This document shows positions 1 to 20,900 of a stretch of 64,000 nucleotides of DNA, in pieces; position 1 is the first letter of the stretch; each line of letters opens with the position of its first letter. A program made the translations under genes and the position numbers. The notes under the pieces are model-generated. The model was not told the DNA's origin. It ran no database searches and saw only the letters and a program-made list of their open reading frames with translations. This DNA is from Chloroflexota bacterium (GTDB taxonomy: Bacteria > Chloroflexota > Anaerolineae > DTLA01), in contig JADBJK010000069.1 of the NCBI GenBank assembly GCA_014874485.1, positions 24,422 to 88,421 of the forward strand, written 5' to 3'.

Positions 1-220
1 CCTCCATCACCGTCCCCATCCCGCCATGCGACACGACCAGACTCGCCTGCCGATAGTACGGCTCCAGCGAGGGCGCGGAGCGGAACCAGCGCAGGTTCTT
101 CGGCTCATAGCGTCCGCGCCCGATTTGCGCCACGACCTCGTCGCCCAGCGCAGGCGCGAGGCGATCCATCGCCTCCACCAACGCGTCAAAATCCGTGGTG
201 CCGACGGTTACGAAGATCAT
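1..220 (-). CDS. Alg13-like GT28 C-terminal subunit (partial)
   Basis: The 5' part of a gene that runs off the left window edge. It begins MIFVTVGTTDFDALVEAMD and the last visible residues include VSHGGMGTVME, the donor-nucleotide-binding loop typical of GT28/Alg13 C-terminal domains. Alg13-type proteins pair with a membrane-recruiting Alg14 partner to form one glycosyltransferase. That partner is the gene directly upstream, whose stop overlaps this ATG as ATGA. By analogy with the PssD/PssE and CpsF/CpsG pairs it probably adds a sugar to a lipid-linked repeat unit on the cytoplasmic face. About 73 codons are visible; a full Alg13-like protein has roughly 160. Confidence 0.85.
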   Translation of the reverse strand, partial: MIFVTVGTTDFDALVEAMDRLAPALGDEVVAQIGRGRYEPKNLRWFRSAPSLEPYYRQASLVVSHGGMGTVME

Positions 221-696
221 CAGCACAGCCTCCCCGCGTACACGGCCCTAGGGTACTTCGCCACCAGCGGCTCCCACTGCACCAGGAACAAGTCGGCCAG
301 GCGGTACATGATGCGGCCGGTGGTGGACAGGGCCGTAACCCGCGAGCCGGTCTCCACGAAGATGACCTTGACGCCCGCGAGTTTGCAGACCAGCGCCACA
401 GGCACGGCCACGCTGGGGCCGGTGCTGATCATGGCCCGCGGGCGGAACTGCCGCACGGCGCGCCACGCCTGCCACGCGCACACCAGGAACTTGCGCACGT
501 CGTTGGGCAGGTTGTGGGCCTTGTCGCGCGGGCGGATGACGCGGAACACCGGCCCAGGCACGGTGATTTTCTTCTCCGACAGGTCATCATCGGCCACGAG
601 GACGTAGCCGAACTCGTACCCCTCGCCCAGGAGTTCCACCAGGCGCACCATCTCCTTCGTGTGCCCGCCCTCGCCCAGCACCGCCAGAATCCTCAT
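220..696 (-). CDS. Alg14-like glycosyltransferase subunit (PssD/CpsF type)
   Basis: A 158-aa protein beginning MRILAVLGEGGHTKEMVRLV; the GGHTxEM turn is the hallmark of the Alg14/EpsF N-terminal domain. A later stretch, MISTGPSVAVPVALVCKLAG, followed by IFVETGSRV, also matches the family. Alg14-type subunits anchor the catalytic Alg13-type partner at the membrane, and that partner follows with an ATGA overlap. The ORF track extends this frame to 990, but the upstream part is a shadow of the preceding gene. The ATG at 696 gives the expected family length and start motif. I infer a role in adding one residue of the exopolysaccharide repeat. Confidence 0.88.
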   Translation of the reverse strand: MRILAVLGEGGHTKEMVRLVELLGEGYEFGYVLVADDDLSEKKITVPGPVFRVIRPRDKAHNLPNDVRKFLVCAWQAWRAVRQFRPRAMISTGPSVAVPVALVCKLAGVKVIFVETGSRVTALSTTGRIMYRLADLFLVQWEPLVAKYPRAVYAGRLC

Positions 697-703
697 GCCG
701 CCC

Positions 704-1660
704 TCACCTGACCTGCGATCCCCCGCGTGTCGCCAGCACGCGCTCGTACACCGCCACAATCTGCCTGGCCGTGGCCTCCAGCGACAGGTGCGCCACGCGC
801 CGCCGACCGTCGGTGCGGCCACCGCGCGCCAGGGCCAGGCGCAACTTGGCCGCCATGTCCTCCGGCGTGCGCGCGCACAGGTAGCACCCGTCCGTGTCGC
901 CGATGATCTCGGCCACATCGCCCACGTCCACCGAGACGATGGGCAGGTTGCACGCCATGGCCTCCTTGATGACCATGGGCGAACCCTCAAAATCCGACGC
1001 CAGCGCCAGCACGTCGCAGGCGTTCATGTACAGCGGCATCTCCTCGTGCGGGCGATTGGACGCAACGACCAACTGCACGCGGCTGTCCTGCGCCGACAGG
1101 AGCGCCACCGCCGCCTGGATGATCTCCAGCCGCTTTTCGGGGCGCGGCTCGCCTGCGAACAGGACGAGTTTGGCGTCCGCGGGCAGGCCCAGGCGGGCGC
1201 GCGCCTCGGCCTGGAGCATGGGGGCGAACCGCGCCATGTCCACGCCGCACGGGATGACCACAGCATCCTCGTCGCCCAGGGCGCGCTTCACGACGCCGGA
1301 CGTAACGATAACCGCGTCCACGCGGGGCGTTACCCAGCGGCACAGTTGGCCCTGCCAGCCCAGCACGACCTCTATGCCGTGGTGGGTGAGCACCACTGGC
1401 AGGCGGCGCTGGCTCAACGCCACCAGGCCCGAGAACACGTAGTGCGCGTGAATCAAATCGTAGGGCGCGTGCCGGCGCAGGTGCCGCGGCAAATCAGCGA
1501 ACCCGCGCGCGTAGTTCAGGCGGCTGGCCTTGCCATCCATGAAAAACACGTCCAAGTCAACCCCAAGCCCGCGCAGCGATTCCACTTGATCGCGCACGAA
1601 CGTGCCGAAGGCGGGCTTGTCCGCCGTCGGGTACATGTTCGTTACCACCAGCACGCGCAT
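704..1660 (-). CDS. GT4 family glycosyltransferase
   Basis: A 318-aa GT-B fold glycosyltransferase. The N-terminus MRVLVVTNMYPTADKPAFGTFV is the usual GT4 opening with the family FVRDQV region. The middle carries LFAGEPRPEKRLEIIQAA, a nucleotide-sugar-binding loop, and the C-terminal half has FEGSPMVIKEAMACNLPIVS, the E-x7-E donor motif of retaining GT4 enzymes. It is somewhat shorter than most GT4 enzymes (360-400 aa), mainly in the N-terminal acceptor domain. Its ATG directly abuts the TAG of the upstream fusion gene, so it is almost certainly cotranscribed. Substrate unknown. Confidence 0.9.
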   Translation of the reverse strand: MRVLVVTNMYPTADKPAFGTFVRDQVESLRGLGVDLDVFFMDGKASRLNYARGFADLPRHLRRHAPYDLIHAHYVFSGLVALSQRRLPVVLTHHGIEVVLGWQGQLCRWVTPRVDAVIVTSGVVKRALGDEDAVVIPCGVDMARFAPMLQAEARARLGLPADAKLVLFAGEPRPEKRLEIIQAAVALLSAQDSRVQLVVASNRPHEEMPLYMNACDVLALASDFEGSPMVIKEAMACNLPIVSVDVGDVAEIIGDTDGCYLCARTPEDMAAKLRLALARGGRTDGRRRVAHLSLEATARQIVAVYERVLATRGGSQVR

Positions 1661-3424
1661 CTAGTCTTGCTCCAGGAACGGGCGCTTAGCCCGCGGGTTG
1701 AACAGGAACAGGCCGTTGACGAACGTCCGATAGCGCCGGTAGTAGCGCAGCAGCGTCAGGCGCACCGTCTCGCCGGCGACGGTTTCCAGAGGCTGCGCGG
1801 CATCCAGCACGTGCCAGCCCTTCGCCTGGGCCAGACGCCGATACCACTCGGCCTGCCGCCCCAGGAACGCCTCGGACTCCTGCCCGGCCTTGCGGCGGGC
1901 GGCCACGTCGGGCGGCACGTCCAGCAGCAACCGGATTGCCGGGCGCGGCGACAGGCGCTCCAGCAGGCGCAGCGCCAGCGGCACATACCCCGCCCCGGCC
2001 GCATCCAGGTACGCGGCGACCTCGGCCTGCGCGTCGGCCACGTAGCGGTCGGCGATGACCACCCACCCGCGCAGGAGCGGCCACGCGACGCGAGCCATGT
2101 ACTGCCGCCACAGGTCCAACGCGATGACCCACGGCCACACCCGCCGCACCACAGGCCGCCGCCACAGCGCCGCGCGCCGCTGCCACGGGTCGCTCGCGCT
2201 GTTGCCTGGCCCGGCGGGGGCTGCGGACGTGCCACCCAGCCACCTCTTGCCCAGGCCGATGAGCGCGTCGGTCAGCGGCGAGGACGCCCCCCGCGTCCAC
2301 ACGACCCGCGCCCGGATGTCGCACTGCGCGAAGGCGGCCTGCAACGCTTCGGCGTGGGCGGTCTTGCCCGACCCGTCTACGCCGCTGAGGACGGCCAGCA
2401 TGGGCCGCTGCGAGCGGACGTTCAACTTGCGGCGCACCCCGGCCAGGGCGTGGCGCACGGCGTCATCCAGTTTCTGGGGCCGAGACAGCCGTCGGTCTCG
2501 CGCCACTTTGGCGAAGTAGTGCCGCTTGCTGTAGGCGAAGCCCACGCGCACGGGAAGCGTCCGCGCTTCCGCAGGCGGCAGCGACGCGGGCGGCAGACGG
2601 TGCGGCACGGCGTTCGGGATGCGCGCGTCCGCAAACCACAGCGCCTCGGCCCGCGCCACGTGCCCCAGGATGACGTTCAGCCCGCGGAGCCAGCCGCGCT
2701 CTTCGGCCTGCCTCGCACAGAAATCCCAGTCAAAGTGGGCATCGCTCAGGCTATGGCGCACCTTCACGATGTCCCAGAGTTTGAACTCCTTGTCCTCGTA
2801 GAAGGCGTGGGCCAGCGTTACCAGCACCTCGTCTTCGGGGCCCAGGATGGACACGTCGGGGTCATCTGGGGACGGCCTCACCCGCTCCCAGAGCCACTCG
2901 TCCACCAGGAACCCTGTGCCCCAGCCGACCTGCGTGTGCAGGTGGATGGCCGAGACCTCTGCCCCGCCCACGAACCGCTTGAACAGGAACTTTCGCGGCT
3001 CCTCAATGTTGCGCAGTTCCACGTAGCCCAGGCCGTAGAGCGCCTGCGCCGCCGCCAGTTCCGACTCCGGCGGCACGAGCAGGTCCACGTTGTCGCTGCG
3101 GTACGGGAACGAGGGGGCAATCCCCGCCGACTTGATGAGCGCGCACGGGACGCCCAGGGACGCCAGCGCGTTGCGCACCTTCACGTACTCGCTTCGCTGG
3201 CGGGCCAGGCTGGCCTGCTCCTGCGCCAGGGCTTCGGCGAAAGGCGGCGCGTTCCAGATGGGCAGGTCTGGGCGCACGCGCCGCGCCGACAGCAGCGGCA
3301 CCTTGTTGCGCCGCAGGCACGCCACCAGCGCGTCCATGTCGGCCTGCGACCAGTCGTCGGGATTCACGGGCTTTGCGCCCGCGTCGCTGAGGAAGACGGC
3401 CAGCCGCAACGCGCGCTCGCTCAT
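1661..3424 (-). CDS. Nucleotidyltransferase (NTP_transf_5-like) fused to thymidylate-kinase-like domain
   Basis: A 587-aa two-domain protein. Residues ~1-280 resemble the NTP_transf_5 family: SDNVDLLV at ~110-117 supplies the paired aspartates expected of a polymerase-beta-type nucleotidyltransferase. Residues ~340-587 form a P-loop kinase: GVDGSGKT at 348-355, ADRY at ~458-461 (the DR[YH] of thymidylate kinases) and LLLDVPPDVAARR near the lid region. The ORF track start at 3466 is too early; the ATG at 3424 overlaps the previous stop as ATGA. The gene sits inside the exopolysaccharide operon, so a housekeeping dTMP kinase role is unlikely. I infer a nucleotide- or phosphate-transfer role in sugar modification; the substrate is unknown. 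Confidence 0.8.
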   Translation of the reverse strand: MSERALRLAVFLSDAGAKPVNPDDWSQADMDALVACLRRNKVPLLSARRVRPDLPIWNAPPFAEALAQEQASLARQRSEYVKVRNALASLGVPCALIKSAGIAPSFPYRSDNVDLLVPPESELAAAQALYGLGYVELRNIEEPRKFLFKRFVGGAEVSAIHLHTQVGWGTGFLVDEWLWERVRPSPDDPDVSILGPEDEVLVTLAHAFYEDKEFKLWDIVKVRHSLSDAHFDWDFCARQAEERGWLRGLNVILGHVARAEALWFADARIPNAVPHRLPPASLPPAEARTLPVRVGFAYSKRHYFAKVARDRRLSRPQKLDDAVRHALAGVRRKLNVRSQRPMLAVLSGVDGSGKTAHAEALQAAFAQCDIRARVVWTRGASSPLTDALIGLGKRWLGGTSAAPAGPGNSASDPWQRRAALWRRPVVRRVWPWVIALDLWRQYMARVAWPLLRGWVVIADRYVADAQAEVAAYLDAAGAGYVPLALRLLERLSPRPAIRLLLDVPPDVAARRKAGQESEAFLGRQAEWYRRLAQAKGWHVLDAAQPLETVAGETVRLTLLRYYRRYRTFVNGLFLFNPRAKRPFLEQD

Positions 3425-4467
3425 GCCGTCCTCCCCGAAATCAGCATCTGCGCGGCGGCGGCCCAACTGTACCCCTCCACGCGGGCGCGGGTGCGCACCG
3501 ACTTGTCGGCCAGCGCCTGCCGCACTGCGTCGGCCAGGGCCGCATCGTCGGCCACGTAGCGCAGCCCTTCCCCCGCAGGGAAAAGCCGCGGCAGTTCGCC
3601 AAACGGCGTGCTCACGACCGGCAGGTTGCAGGCCATCGCCTCCAGCACCGACATGGGAATCTCCACGCTCCCCTGGGCCGAACGAACGGGAAAAACGTAG
3701 CAGTCGGCCATCTGGTACAACTCGGCCAGGCGCTCTACATAGCGGGTGATGACGATAGCCCCCGCATCCTCCAGCGCGCGCACCAGCGCCTCATCCACGC
3801 CGAACGCCGAACTCCCCAGGACCACGACCTGCGCCTCGCCCCGCAAGGCCCGCTGGAGCGACACCAGCGCGTGGATGTTGCGGTTGGATAGGATGTGCCC
3901 GGCGTGGAACACGAGGGGGACATCGGGGGCCAGCCCGTACTGCGCCCGAAGCGCACGCCGCCGGGCGTCATCGGCCGGGGCGAAGGTTTCGGTGTCCACG
4001 GCGGGCGGCAGGATGCGCACGTCGCACCCCATCTCGCGCAAGGGGGCCGCCGTCGCCTCGCCCTGCGCCCAGACCGGCCCGGCGCGTAGGAGCGGGATCA
4101 GCGCCCGCGCCACGCGCCCGTACGCGCGCGGCTGGAACGCCACCATCGCCACCGGCGTCCGGGCATACGTTGCGAGGGCGCGCGCCCGCACGAAACTGAA
4201 CAGCGTGGCGCACGCCGTCGGGAAGTAGAGCGTGTACTCGGGCCTGAAGCCGCGCACGCGCCGCATGAGGCCCGCGCTGAGGAGCAAGCGGTTGGCCCGC
4301 ACGCGGTGCACGCCTGCGTCGGGGATGCCGCTGCCGCGGTTCGTCAGCGCCAGCACCTCGTGCGACGCCTGCAACGCCCTGAGCAGCAGCCACGACGCCT
4401 TCTTGATGCCCTCGTCAAACGGCGGCACCAGCGCCTCGGAGAAGTAGAGCACGCGCATCGTCCTCAT
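3421..4467 (-). CDS. GT4 family glycosyltransferase
   Basis: A 348-aa GT-B glycosyltransferase. The opening MRTMRVLYFSEALVPPFDEG is typical, with a glycine in the acceptor loop (EGIKKASWLLL). The second domain starts near VPLVFHAGHILSNRN, and the donor site carries GSVEIPMSVLEAMACNLPVV with the two spaced glutamates of GT4. Both ends overlap neighbours by four bases (ATGA at 4467 and at 3424), so it is translationally coupled in a long minus-strand operon. Probably a retaining transferase in repeat-unit assembly; sugar and linkage cannot be read from sequence. Confidence 0.9.
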   Translation of the reverse strand: MRTMRVLYFSEALVPPFDEGIKKASWLLLRALQASHEVLALTNRGSGIPDAGVHRVRANRLLLSAGLMRRVRGFRPEYTLYFPTACATLFSFVRARALATYARTPVAMVAFQPRAYGRVARALIPLLRAGPVWAQGEATAAPLREMGCDVRILPPAVDTETFAPADDARRRALRAQYGLAPDVPLVFHAGHILSNRNIHALVSLQRALRGEAQVVVLGSSAFGVDEALVRALEDAGAIVITRYVERLAELYQMADCYVFPVRSAQGSVEIPMSVLEAMACNLPVVSTPFGELPRLFPAGEGLRYVADDAALADAVRQALADKSVRTRARVEGYSWAAAAQMLISGRTA

Positions 4468-16312: not shown

Positions 16313-17740
16313 TCAGGCTCGGCGCAAGGCCCGCTTGGCCCTGCGCCAGACGTTCAGCACGCGCTCCATCCTGGCCTCGTCGCCGCCCAGAAGCGCGCGC
16401 AGCGCCTTCTTGGCGCGGTACTTCCAGGGATGGGTGCGGCGAAGGCTCAACTCGCTCTTGAGCGCCATGAAGCGGTCGTACTCGTAGGCCAGTTCCTCCG
16501 GCGTCAGCGTGGGCAGGTTGAGCACGCTGGTGCGCGCGTAGTAGGTAGACAGCGCGCCCGCCTGGGGCACGTAGTACCCCTTCTCCACGGCGATGTCGTG
16601 CAGTTCGGTCATCGGGTACGGGTAGAACACCGAGAACTGCAAGTCGTCAGGCTCCAGGCGGCGGTTCAGTTCAATGGTCTCCTCTATCATCTCCTTTGTT
16701 TCGCCCGGGATGCCCAGCATGTTGCACGTGTACGCCTTCAGCCCGTGCTTGCGCAGGCGGCGGAATGCGGCGATGATGTCCTCGTTGCTCATGCGGCGCT
16801 TCAGGATGTCGCGGCGCAACAGTTCATTGCCCGACTCAATCCCGATGCGCACGCCCTTGCACCCCGCACGGGCCAGCGCCGCCACAATCTCCTCGGACAG
16901 GCGCTCCACCCGCGTGTTGATCCAGAACGGCAGTTTGAACTCCCGCCCGTAGGCTTCGCAGAACTCCAGCGTCCACTTCTCGTCCAGCGTGAAGGTATCG
17001 TCCTGGAAGTTGATGGTCTTCACCTTGTAGCGCGATTGGAGTTCGCGGATTTCGGCCAGGACGTGGGGCACGCTGCGGAAGCGCACGTACTTGCCCAGCC
17101 CCTTGTAGCGGTTCTGCAGGCCCGGGTTGCAGCAGTAGGAGCACTGATACGGGCAGCCGCGCCCGCTCATCATGTCCACCCAGCCGTCGTTGGCCGCCAG
17201 GATGCCCTCAAAGTCAAACAGGTCCCGGTCGGCGAAGGGCAGTTCGTCCAGGTTGGCGATGAGCGGGCGGAGCGGGTTGCGGATGATGTCGTCGCCGCGC
17301 CGCATCCACAGGTTGGCGATGTCGTGGAACGGCTGGCCCGCGGCCACGCGCTGCACCAGTTCGCGGAAGGCATACTCGCCCTCGCCCACGCACACGGCAT
17401 CCCAGTTGGGGTTGCCGACCACCTCCTCCGGCGCGAGGGTCGGGTGCGTGCCGCCGGAAACCAGGATGAGTTCGGGCATAGCTTCCTTCAGCCACGCCGC
17501 CCATTTCTCCACAAACGGGTGCTGGTGCGTCGTGGACGAGAAGGCCACGATGGCGGGGTTGGCACGGGCCACGCGCTCCAGCAACTCTTCGCGGGTCGGC
17601 TCGCGGTCCGCGTAGTACAACTCGGTCGTGTGCCCGTCCTGCTTCACCACGGCGGACAGGTACGCGAGGCCGTGGTAGAACTTGCGCGCGCCGTAATGCT
17701 CAACACCTTCTATGTCCGGATACACAAACAGAATCTTCAT
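16313..17740 (-). CDS. B12-binding radical SAM protein
   Basis: A 475-aa protein. Residues ~1-150 form a cobalamin-binding-like Rossmann domain (MKILFVYPDIEG...ILVSGGTHPTLAPEE). The radical SAM domain follows, with GCPYQCSYCC giving the Cx3Cx2C iron-sulfur motif, then IESGNELLRRDILKR and NMLGIPGETKEMIEET, the conserved later strands. These enzymes commonly perform methyl transfer or radical rearrangements. The ATG at 17740 has GAGGAG just upstream. It lies between the exopolysaccharide methyltransferase and a secreted esterase. The substrate cannot be read; a carbohydrate or lipid-carrier modification is plausible. Confidence 0.88.
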   Translation of the reverse strand: MKILFVYPDIEGVEHYGARKFYHGLAYLSAVVKQDGHTTELYYADREPTREELLERVARANPAIVAFSSTTHQHPFVEKWAAWLKEAMPELILVSGGTHPTLAPEEVVGNPNWDAVCVGEGEYAFRELVQRVAAGQPFHDIANLWMRRGDDIIRNPLRPLIANLDELPFADRDLFDFEGILAANDGWVDMMSGRGCPYQCSYCCNPGLQNRYKGLGKYVRFRSVPHVLAEIRELQSRYKVKTINFQDDTFTLDEKWTLEFCEAYGREFKLPFWINTRVERLSEEIVAALARAGCKGVRIGIESGNELLRRDILKRRMSNEDIIAAFRRLRKHGLKAYTCNMLGIPGETKEMIEETIELNRRLEPDDLQFSVFYPYPMTELHDIAVEKGYYVPQAGALSTYYARTSVLNLPTLTPEELAYEYDRFMALKSELSLRRTHPWKYRAKKALRALLGGDEARMERVLNVWRRAKRALRRA

Positions 17741-17753
17741 GCACTCCTCGCTT

Positions 17754-20700
17754 CTACTGCCAGAAATACGGCGGCACGGAAACCACCGGCAGGAATACCT
17801 GCGGCGAAGCCCTGCGGGTGGCCGTCGGCGTGGGCGTTACCGACGGGGTCAGGGTCGGCGACGGCGTCGGTGTGGGCGACAGGGTGCCCGTCCGCGTGGG
17901 TGTGGGCGTCAGGGTCGGGCCGGCGGTGGCGGTCGGCGTCGGCGTATGGGTGGGCGCCGCGGTCGGGGTGGCCGTCGGCGTGTTGGTCGGGGTCGGCGTC
18001 ACCGTCGGCGTCGGCGTGGGCGTGGGCAGGGCGTAGGCGACCCACAAGCGCGGGCCATTGGGGTTGCCTCCGTCCGCCGACGCGATCCTGTACCACGTGT
18101 ATGCGTTGCTCTGCCCCTTCAGGAGCAACCCGCGGTTGATCTCCGGATTCGCCACCCACTGGCGGGTCATGGGTCGGACGTTCATCTCGTAGGTCTTGAG
18201 TACCTGATTGATGCTCACCGTGCTGTCGGCATCCCTGTATCGGTCGGACTCGGTGTTCTCCGCCCCGTTGGCGCCCCATGTGTCGGCGGCGGTTGCCCGA
18301 AACCAGGTGGCCTCTGCGGCGTTCCACGCGCGGCGCATCTGGTAGGCCGATACCGTCAGCGTCTCCGTGTTGCGCTGCGAGGTCGTGTAGAACCGCAACG
18401 AACTCCCCAGAATGACGGCGTTCTCCGGAATGGCGGTCGTATCAAAGCGGATGAGGGCGCGCTGGTTGCCGTCGGACTGGATGGCCAGATACGTTTCGGA
18501 GCCTTTGGGCGTGTTGTCGTTGTACACAATGTACGTGTCTTCCGCGGCGCGCAGTTCCAATTCAGTGAACTGCGGCGCGAGGGCGGGCGGCGAAATCCGT
18601 ATCTCGTGGGTGCCCCACCCCGGCGTTACCGACAGGAACCCGCCCGCCGACGATACGTTCGTGTGCGCGTATCGCCCGGTCGCGGCGTCAAAGTTCTGCA
18701 CCACCCACGTGGACGACAACCCCGCCAGCCCCATCTGCTCCAGGTTGAGGCGGAAGGTCAGCGATTGTACGCTGTCCGACGTGTTCGCAGGCTTCGGGTC
18801 TTCGGTCTTCACGGTGATGACGCCGTCGGCATCAAAAGCCGCTTCCACGCGGCTCCAGTGGTCGCTCCCCGTCTGGGTGATGGTCAGCCAGTAGTAGGTG
18901 CACGACCGGTCGGTGAAGGCACACCGGCCATCGGTCCGAATGACCAGACGCTGCGGCACTTCCACCCGGCGATAGGGCTTCAGGAAGTTCAGGACACCGT
19001 CGCTCCCACCGGGCCACGGCGTCTCGTGATGACCATCGTAGAGGGCCACCGTGGGCGGGATGTCCGCGTACAGGGCCACGGCGTCGGACAGCCGAAGCGT
19101 ATGCGAAACCGGCACAACCGTGTCCTGCAGCCCGTGCGTCAGGAGCATGGGGATGTGGGCCATGTTGGAAGCGTACTCAATGGGCGAGCGGCGCTCATAC
19201 TCAAAGGGTTTGCCCAGGGGAGACCCGCCGATTTCGGCCTCCAGTGCAGACTGTCGCCATGATACTGACTCCCAATACCACTGGTCCAAGTCCGATGGGC
19301 CGCGCTCTATGGCGGCGGCGGCGAACAGTTGCGGGTACTTGCCCGCCATGCCGCTGGCCATCATCCCGCCCATGGACACGCCCGTGATGTAAATCCGCGA
19401 CTCATCCACGCGGTAGTTCGCCTTCATATAGTTGATGGTATCCAGCAACTGCCCCTGCACGCTGAGCGAAAGCGTGTGGTTCTGCTCCAGGTCGGGCGCC
19501 ACCACCAGCCAGCCGTTGCGGTTCGCGGCATCGGCGTGGATTCCCAGCGCGTCCAGCGCCTTCCCGCTCCAGCCGTGGATGCTCACCAGAAGCGGCAGCA
19601 GCACGTCGCCCCTGTAGCCGGAGGGCGTCATGATAGACGCGCGGTAACTCCAACTCCCATTGCTGGCCTTGAACGAGACGGTGCGGATGGTCGCGGGGAC
19701 CACATCGCCCTCGGCTTCAATCTTCACGTTCACCGCGCCCCACAGGTCGGTGGGGTCGGCGTCGGCGGTGATGGTGATGTCGTTGAACCCGCTCCGCAAG
19801 ATGTGGGGGTCAAAGGGCCACGAGAACGTCCGCCCCGGCTCACAGGTGCCGCCACCCGATGGGAACGTTACGCCTACCTTCACGCCGTTCACATAGATGC
19901 TATGGCCCGCCTTGCTGTTGGAAAGGTCCATGATGAGTTTGGCGCGGGTAAGGCTTCCCGTGTACACGAGCAGAACGTTGGTGCGCGCCTCGGTTCCGAA
20001 TGTGGAACCTACCCTGACGCAGTCGGTGGCGATGGTGGACGTGATGACCGTGCCGGGCACCGGCGTTGGCGTGGGCGTCGGCGTGGGCGTGCGGGTGGCC
20101 GTCGGCTGCGGCGTAACGTCGGGCGCGAAGGTGTAGTAGATGTCCAGCAGGGGGCGCTTGCTGGCGTCAGTCCAGTCGGACGCCCAGAACCGGTACTCAA
20201 TGATGGACGAAGCCGTTGGCAGGAGCAGAAACCCGTTGTTCGTGTCCGGCGCTGCAAGCCATCCGGTAATCGCGTCGGTAACGTCCAGTGCGTATTCCGT
20301 GCTCACCTGGTCAACGGTAACCGTGGCGACAGCGCTTGCCTCGCGGTCGCCGGGGCCGTCAGCGCCCGCCTTTTCCCACGCCACGCCCGTGAGGCGGCTC
20401 TTCCATGTAGCCTGGTTCGCGTCCCACGGCTGGAGCAAACGGTACAGTTCCAGCGTCATCGGCCGGTCCGCCGAGCGGTACGATGTCGTCCACAGGTGCA
20501 GCGTGGCCGAGAGGATGCGTGCGTCAGGTGGTATCTGGCCCGCCAGGTCAAAGCGCAGCAGGGCGCGTTTGGCAGGCCCCCCGGTCCGCACCTGCAGTTC
20601 GCCCCAGTAGGTAGGACCGTTGAAGTTCGCATCAGGCACGCTGTCGTTGATGTACGTATCTGCAACCCCCGTGTACCCGTTGACGTTCTGCCGCAGTTGC

Positions 20701-20900
20701 ACGTGGTAAATCGTCTCCCCGTTCAGCACCCCAACGGGCTTGGGCGTGCCTGCGTCCCAGGTCGCGCCCGTCGCGGCGTCCGAGGACTCCAGCGCCGCGC
20801 CCCATATCAGCGCCAGCAGCGCCACCGTGCACAGGGCCACTGCCAGCGCCCACGGTTTCCGGTTGCCTTTTCGCAATGCAGGTTCGTGATGTGCGTCCAT
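17754..20900 (-). CDS. Secreted alpha/beta-hydrolase (esterase) with two DNRLRE domains and TPT linkers
   Basis: About 1,048 aa. A signal peptide/anchor ([20 protein letters not shown]) is followed by a DNRLRE-type beta domain (~75-260: [28 protein letters not shown]). [11 protein letters not shown] linker (~265-282) leads to a carbohydrate-esterase-like hydrolase (~400-640) with GVSMGG (nucleophile Ser ~509), [10 protein letters not shown] (Asp ~593) and [11 protein letters not shown] (His ~624/625). A second DNRLRE domain follows ([16 protein letters not shown]), then a ~90-residue TPT-rich linker and the tail [12 protein letters not shown]. The start could be GTG 20906 or ATG 20900; I favour the ATG behind AGGGGTGG. 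Probably an extracellular deacylase acting on a polysaccharide. Confidence 0.82.

Follow-up and report, generated by a model that had tools for sequence, protein, structure and literature searches.

What does a protein do that joins a nucleotidyltransferase (NTase)-like half to a thymidylate kinase (TMK)-like half within an exopolysaccharide (EPS) operon? The protein is encoded in a 64,000-nt stretch of DNA from a Chloroflexota bacterium (the window), and an earlier note made from the sequence had suggested that it couples nucleotidyl transfer and phosphorylation on one substrate. TMK-like proteins of polysaccharide loci and NTP_transf_5 proteins are usually annotated from fold alone, as 'thymidylate kinase' or 'nucleotidyltransferase family protein'. 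The fusion family offers a compact, testable system for asking what glycan-locus kinases phosphorylate and whether the nucleotidyltransferase fold has gained new chemistry.

The fusion gene and its relatives

The fusion is encoded by a single unbroken open reading frame of 587 residues on the minus strand (positions 1661-3424), running from an ATG at 3424 to a stop at 1661; the plus strand across this interval contains only an antisense frame. Pfam identified NTP_transf_5 (PF14907) at residues 27-256 (2657-3346, minus strand) with 53.7 bits against a cut-off of 31.2, and Thymidylate_kin (PF02223) with 46.1 bits against a cut-off of 27. The TMK-fold kinase domain covers residues ~342-563 (1736-2401, minus strand), and the ~335 residues before the TMK part form an N-terminal extension relative to dTMP kinase. 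AlphaFold2 models, which were built from 24 sequences and are unrelaxed and ligand-free, were confident both for the whole protein (pLDDT 87.9, pTM 0.87) and for the N half modelled alone (pLDDT 91.0, pTM 0.90). Structure comparison of the whole chain by Foldseek returned dTMP kinases as best matches (E 2e-7, TM-score to target up to 0.78), and dTMP kinases were the only PDB matches to a profile of the C half. For the N half, the top PDB matches were the nucleotidyltransferases ANT(2'')-Ia and LnuA (5kqj, 4wqk, 4fo1), with a probability of 1.00 and a TM-score to target of 0.55-0.62 but an E-value of only 0.018. These are the closest solved folds; however, sequence identity was 12-13% and their catalytic triad is not kept in the fusion. 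Profile-profile alignment (hhalign) of the N half with ordinary Chloroflexota NTP_transf_5 proteins gave 99% and an E-value of 1e-18.

Sampling 301 genomes from the phylum turned up full-length fusions in 5. A scan of the genomes of 84,980 species recovered 25 fusion loci, a lower bound because the scan was motif-based. Most are in Chloroflexota metagenome-assembled genomes (MAGs), single cases carry the labels Rubrobacter, TA06 and WOR-3, and one locus (L060) is a contig-edge fragment from a near-identical genome. A MAG labelled 'Proteobacteria' (L058) was considered as a transfer to that phylum and is not clear evidence for one, as it carries the same contig as genome G003, which was placed in the phylum of the window. 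The comparisons below use 27 distinct fusion-bearing loci, nearly all from Chloroflexota. The window protein is 29-43% identical to its relatives, and fusions in two genomes of the same genus are 82% and 90-94% identical to it. Within the genus, dN/dS (NG86) was 0.17-0.24 for the N half and 0.19 for the C half, and values near 0.2 in both indicate that both are maintained by purifying selection. Given two domains above cut-off, confident folds and low dN/dS in each half, the fusion is neither a chance nor an annotation product, and the architecture described in the earlier note stands. It is a genuine, conserved and rare variant of known domains. A literature search on the fusion, on NTP_transf_5/PF14907, or on EPS together with HprK and a nucleotidyltransferase gave nothing on point.

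TMK-like proteins in which another kind of domain precedes the TMK part were also seen (L020:592-1878 and L014:514-1896). L020 has SDMDVIG and a later Asp and resembles an NTase; the N half had no Pfam match. This is possibly an independent NTase-TMK fusion.

The kinase half

Eighteen bona fide TMKs from related genomes were compared with the 27 fusions. The P-loop (GVDGSGKT in the window protein, residues 348-355, positions 2360-2383, minus strand; GxDGxGKT in general) and the DRY motif (residues 459-461) were universal in both sets. Three other motifs of dTMP kinase, REPGG, LLFxAxRAQ and S-x-AYQ, were found in 18/18 TMKs and in 0/27 fusions. All fusions instead carry WxR after the P-loop and DRYxxDxxx[E/D], neither of which occurs in any of the 18 TMKs. 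In the window protein these are W376-T-R378 (2291-2299, minus strand) and DRY followed by the family-specific D464 and E468 in place of S-x-AYQ (2021-2050, minus strand). R378 is invariant among the fusions and aligns with the Arg of TREPGG in a profile alignment.

In solved TMKs, the TREPGG Arg, the DRY Arg and the P-loop Asp touch the acceptor phosphate or sugar, and Phe/Arg and S-x-AYQ residues touch the base. Since the phosphate-contact residues are kept and the base motifs lost, the acceptor is probably phosphate-bearing, or phosphorylated in the same geometry, and is not read as thymine. The protein scored 35 bits against the NCBIfam dTMP kinase equivalog, for which the cut-off is 83.25, and a separate strong TMK (170 bits) is encoded on another contig of the same genome. 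On these grounds identity as a dTMP kinase was rejected and dTMP is probably not the substrate, in line with the earlier note, which had called dTMP an unlikely target for a TMK fold in a glycan operon. The motifs suggest a kinase half that is apparently competent and retargeted away from thymidylate.

The two retained acceptor-phosphate Arg residues would fit a nucleoside monophosphate kinase too. The TMK-like half could then recycle the UMP or CMP freed by sugar-phosphate transfer, for which both the fold and the acceptor-phosphate Arg would be suited. We consider this very improbable: base-recognition motifs are lost, no alternative base motif was recognised, and salvage leaves the fixed neighbours of the fusion (below) unexplained.

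Free-standing kinases resembling the C half of the fusion occur in EPS-type loci (L010:1498-2220 and L011:1462-2169), with DRYxYDT and, in L011, VWxR. One of the two adjoins a gene that resembles a type I phosphodiesterase by eye. Near the standalone TMK-like kinases (L010-L012), no obvious partner NTase gene was seen by eye in L039-L041.

The nucleotidyltransferase-fold half

The 27 fusions were aligned with 35 rows of ordinary NTP_transf_5 proteins; these rows came from Chloroflexota and one Rubrobacter MAG and include a few duplicates. K98, G99, D112, D114, E/D161 and H163 were each present in 35/35 ordinary members. The fusions showed K98, N112, D114, H161 and H163 in 27/27 and S or A at position 99 in 26/27. 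The catalytic D-x-D is thus represented by N112-V-D114 (3083-3091, minus strand), and the E/D-x-H that supplies the third carboxylate by H161-L-H163 (2936-2944, minus strand). This change from D-x-D...E/D to N-x-D...H was seen in all 27 fusions and in none of the 35 ordinary members, and profile-profile alignment gave the same register for N112-x-D114 and H161. K98, D114, H163, H206 and D218 are common to both groups, and so is the location in glycan loci.

The earlier note had read both halves as keeping their key motifs. This holds for the P-loop and DRY of the kinase half but not for 'SDNVD' in the N half, which is no kept D-x-D: the catalytic motif aligns with N112-x-D114, the third carboxylate with H161, and D111, the first Asp of 'SDNVD', is present in only 23/27 fusions. 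The normal mechanism of the superfamily uses two metals, and with two of the three metal-binding carboxylates gone, conventional two-metal nucleotidyl transfer is unlikely. The coupled nucleotidyl transfer proposed earlier is not borne out, and loss of catalytic residues across orthologues, named beforehand as counting against it, is what the NTase half displays.

The same residues bear on a form of the earlier note's idea in which the protein is a bifunctional kinase and nucleotidyltransferase making an activated donor, either an NDP-sugar or an NDP-substituent. Fused kinases and nucleotidyltransferases have precedent in HldE and Fkp, which carry both functions on a single chain and serve the making of glycan precursors, and the N half has the NTase fold with K98, D114, H163, H206 and D218 as in ordinary members. 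However, HldE and Fkp are built from kinase and NTase families that are not known to be related to those of the fusion and have both sites intact; the NTase site of the fusion is two carboxylates short in 27/27, and KG has become KS or KA in 26/27. A donor-making enzyme of this kind is quite unlikely.

Loss of metal ligands might also mean that the N half is catalytically dead, serving only as a structural element or as a nucleotide sensor that acts allosterically, and that the kinase alone matters. The free-standing kinases of similar sequence in L010 and L011, which lie in EPS loci and lack an N half, are consistent with this. Against it, every full-length relative has the N half, its dN/dS is about as low as that of the kinase half, and the fusion-specific invariant residues N112 and H161 cluster at the old active site. 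We regard a dead N half as unlikely. Further residues invariant and specific to the fusions are E142, K145, W168, E210, K212, W245 and G248, and this set argues against simple decay. Together with dN/dS near 0.2, conservation of N112, D114, H161, H163, W168, E210 and K212 suggests a rebuilt or repurposed site. The N/D/H/H set could itself catalyse some other reaction instead of serving as a binding module.

Operon context

The window places the fusion in an EPS operon with GT4 glycosyltransferases, a Wzy/ligase, a flippase, Wzz and an Alg13/Alg14 pair, confirming the setting given in the earlier note. Directly upstream, and overlapping the fusion by 4 nt, is a GT4 glycosyltransferase, GT1 (3421-4467, minus strand). 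Directly downstream is a second, TuaC-like GT4, GT2 (704-1660, minus strand), followed by the Alg14-like subunit (220-696, minus strand) of an Alg13/Alg14-type transferase and by the start of the Alg13-like subunit (1-220, minus strand), which continues past the window (L067:19169-19642).

Neighbouring genes were predicted by a simple finder that relies on coding scores, and the predictions were then grouped into clusters. In 25/27 distinct loci, GT1 (~350 residues) lies upstream on the strand of the fusion, no more than three genes away. GT2 (~318 residues) was downstream in 26/27, a count that includes one fused copy, one read-through with N bases, one copy behind an intervening gene and one tblastn match. 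Gaps in the GT1-fusion-GT2 series were frequently -4 nt. In the TA06-labelled MAG, the NTP_transf_5-like, TMK-like and GT4 (GT2) parts are in frame in one ORF of 902 residues (L056:3384-6092). GT2 is followed by an Alg14 and Alg13 pair, as in the window, or by another GT4. Recurrent wider neighbours were a DegT aminotransferase, Gfo/Idh/MocA, a hexapeptide acyltransferase, an epimerase, a methyltransferase, an initiating sugar transferase and a Wzy/ligase; such a set makes up an assembly line for lipid-linked EPS that includes the synthesis of amino sugars. A pairing of NTase and P-loop kinase for PAPS or phosphoramidate donors was also considered and rejected: no conserved sulfo- or phosphoramidate transferase, the cognate enzyme, was found among the recurrent neighbours scanned.

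In four distinct loci, the operon of the fusion includes, a few genes further downstream, an ordinary NTP_transf_5 gene that has both D-x-D and E-x-H (L054:5831-7093, L037:9105-10262, L063:11337-12542 and L035:5233-6414), so that the N half of the fusion has NTase-fold company there. The genome of the window has one PF14907 match only, the fusion gene.

A proposed glycan-assembly kinase

One site of the fusion family has been stripped of dTMP recognition, the other has been rebuilt in a strictly conserved way, and the gene is locked between two specific glycosyltransferases. The near-invariant order of GT4, fusion and GT4 supports a role in glycan assembly, and the near-constant company of the same two glycosyltransferases suggests that the fusion probably phosphorylates a sugar intermediate. 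Our preferred explanation, to which we give an even chance, is that the protein is a kinase of glycan assembly whose remodelled NTase-fold domain binds the acceptor, and that it acts between GT1 and GT2. The C-terminal TMK-fold domain would bind ATP through its P-loop, and D350, R378 and R460 would bind a small or lipid-linked glycan acceptor, probably one bearing a phosphate. The gamma-phosphate would then pass from ATP to this acceptor, the thymine pocket having been lost. The N half, of NTP_transf_5 descent and with its two-metal site rebuilt as N-x-D...H-x-H, most likely no longer transfers nucleotides; its probable role is to recognise or present an acceptor made by GT1 and handed on to GT2.

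A kinase and a nucleotidyltransferase-like protein act in one modification in the lasso peptide pseudomycoidin, where the pair is PsmK and PsmN (PMC9266682, PMC8498205). As described in these reviews, PsmK makes a phospho-Ser to which PsmN attaches one or two hexoses, and PsmN may be a glycosyltransferase with homology to nucleotidyltransferases. By analogy, a hydroxyl of the acceptor might be phosphorylated by the kinase half of the fusion, and the N half might add a sugar to that phosphate, giving a phosphodiester-linked glycan. The proposed hexosylation of phospho-Ser, the conservation of the N half and its position between two glycosyltransferases favour such a module. So do two records of ordinary NTP_transf_5 genes near GT4 and lasso-type genes, which make a link to PsmK/PsmN plausible. 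According to the same literature, however, PsmK and PsmN are two separate proteins with a peptide substrate, and PsmK is HPr-kinase-like and not TMK-like. The fusion also lacks the DxD...E/D of ordinary members, and no lasso peptide genes were among the recurrent neighbour clusters scanned at the fusion loci. We think phospho-glycosylation of this kind has a small chance of being correct. A version confined to one protein seems rather improbable: the TMK-like half would phosphorylate a sugar of the lipid-linked glycan as it grows, and the rebuilt N-x-D...H-x-H half would perform a different transfer, such as sugar to phosphate, yielding a phosphodiester between the GT1 and GT2 residues. The NTase fold would then have turned glycosyltransferase.

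The two records are on plasmids, one from Halopiger, an archaeon (L128), and one from Thalassobaculum (L129), and in each the ordinary NTP_transf_5 gene is near GT4, lasso-type B2, PqqD and asparagine synthase genes. A match on a Priestia plasmid was not inside a lasso cluster.

Two further genes of the window were noted. A B12-binding radical SAM protein (16313-17740) adjoins the EPS operon, and positions 17754-20900 encode a large protein that combines CBM96 and S9-peptidase/esterase-like domains and has a C terminus of PT-rich repeats.
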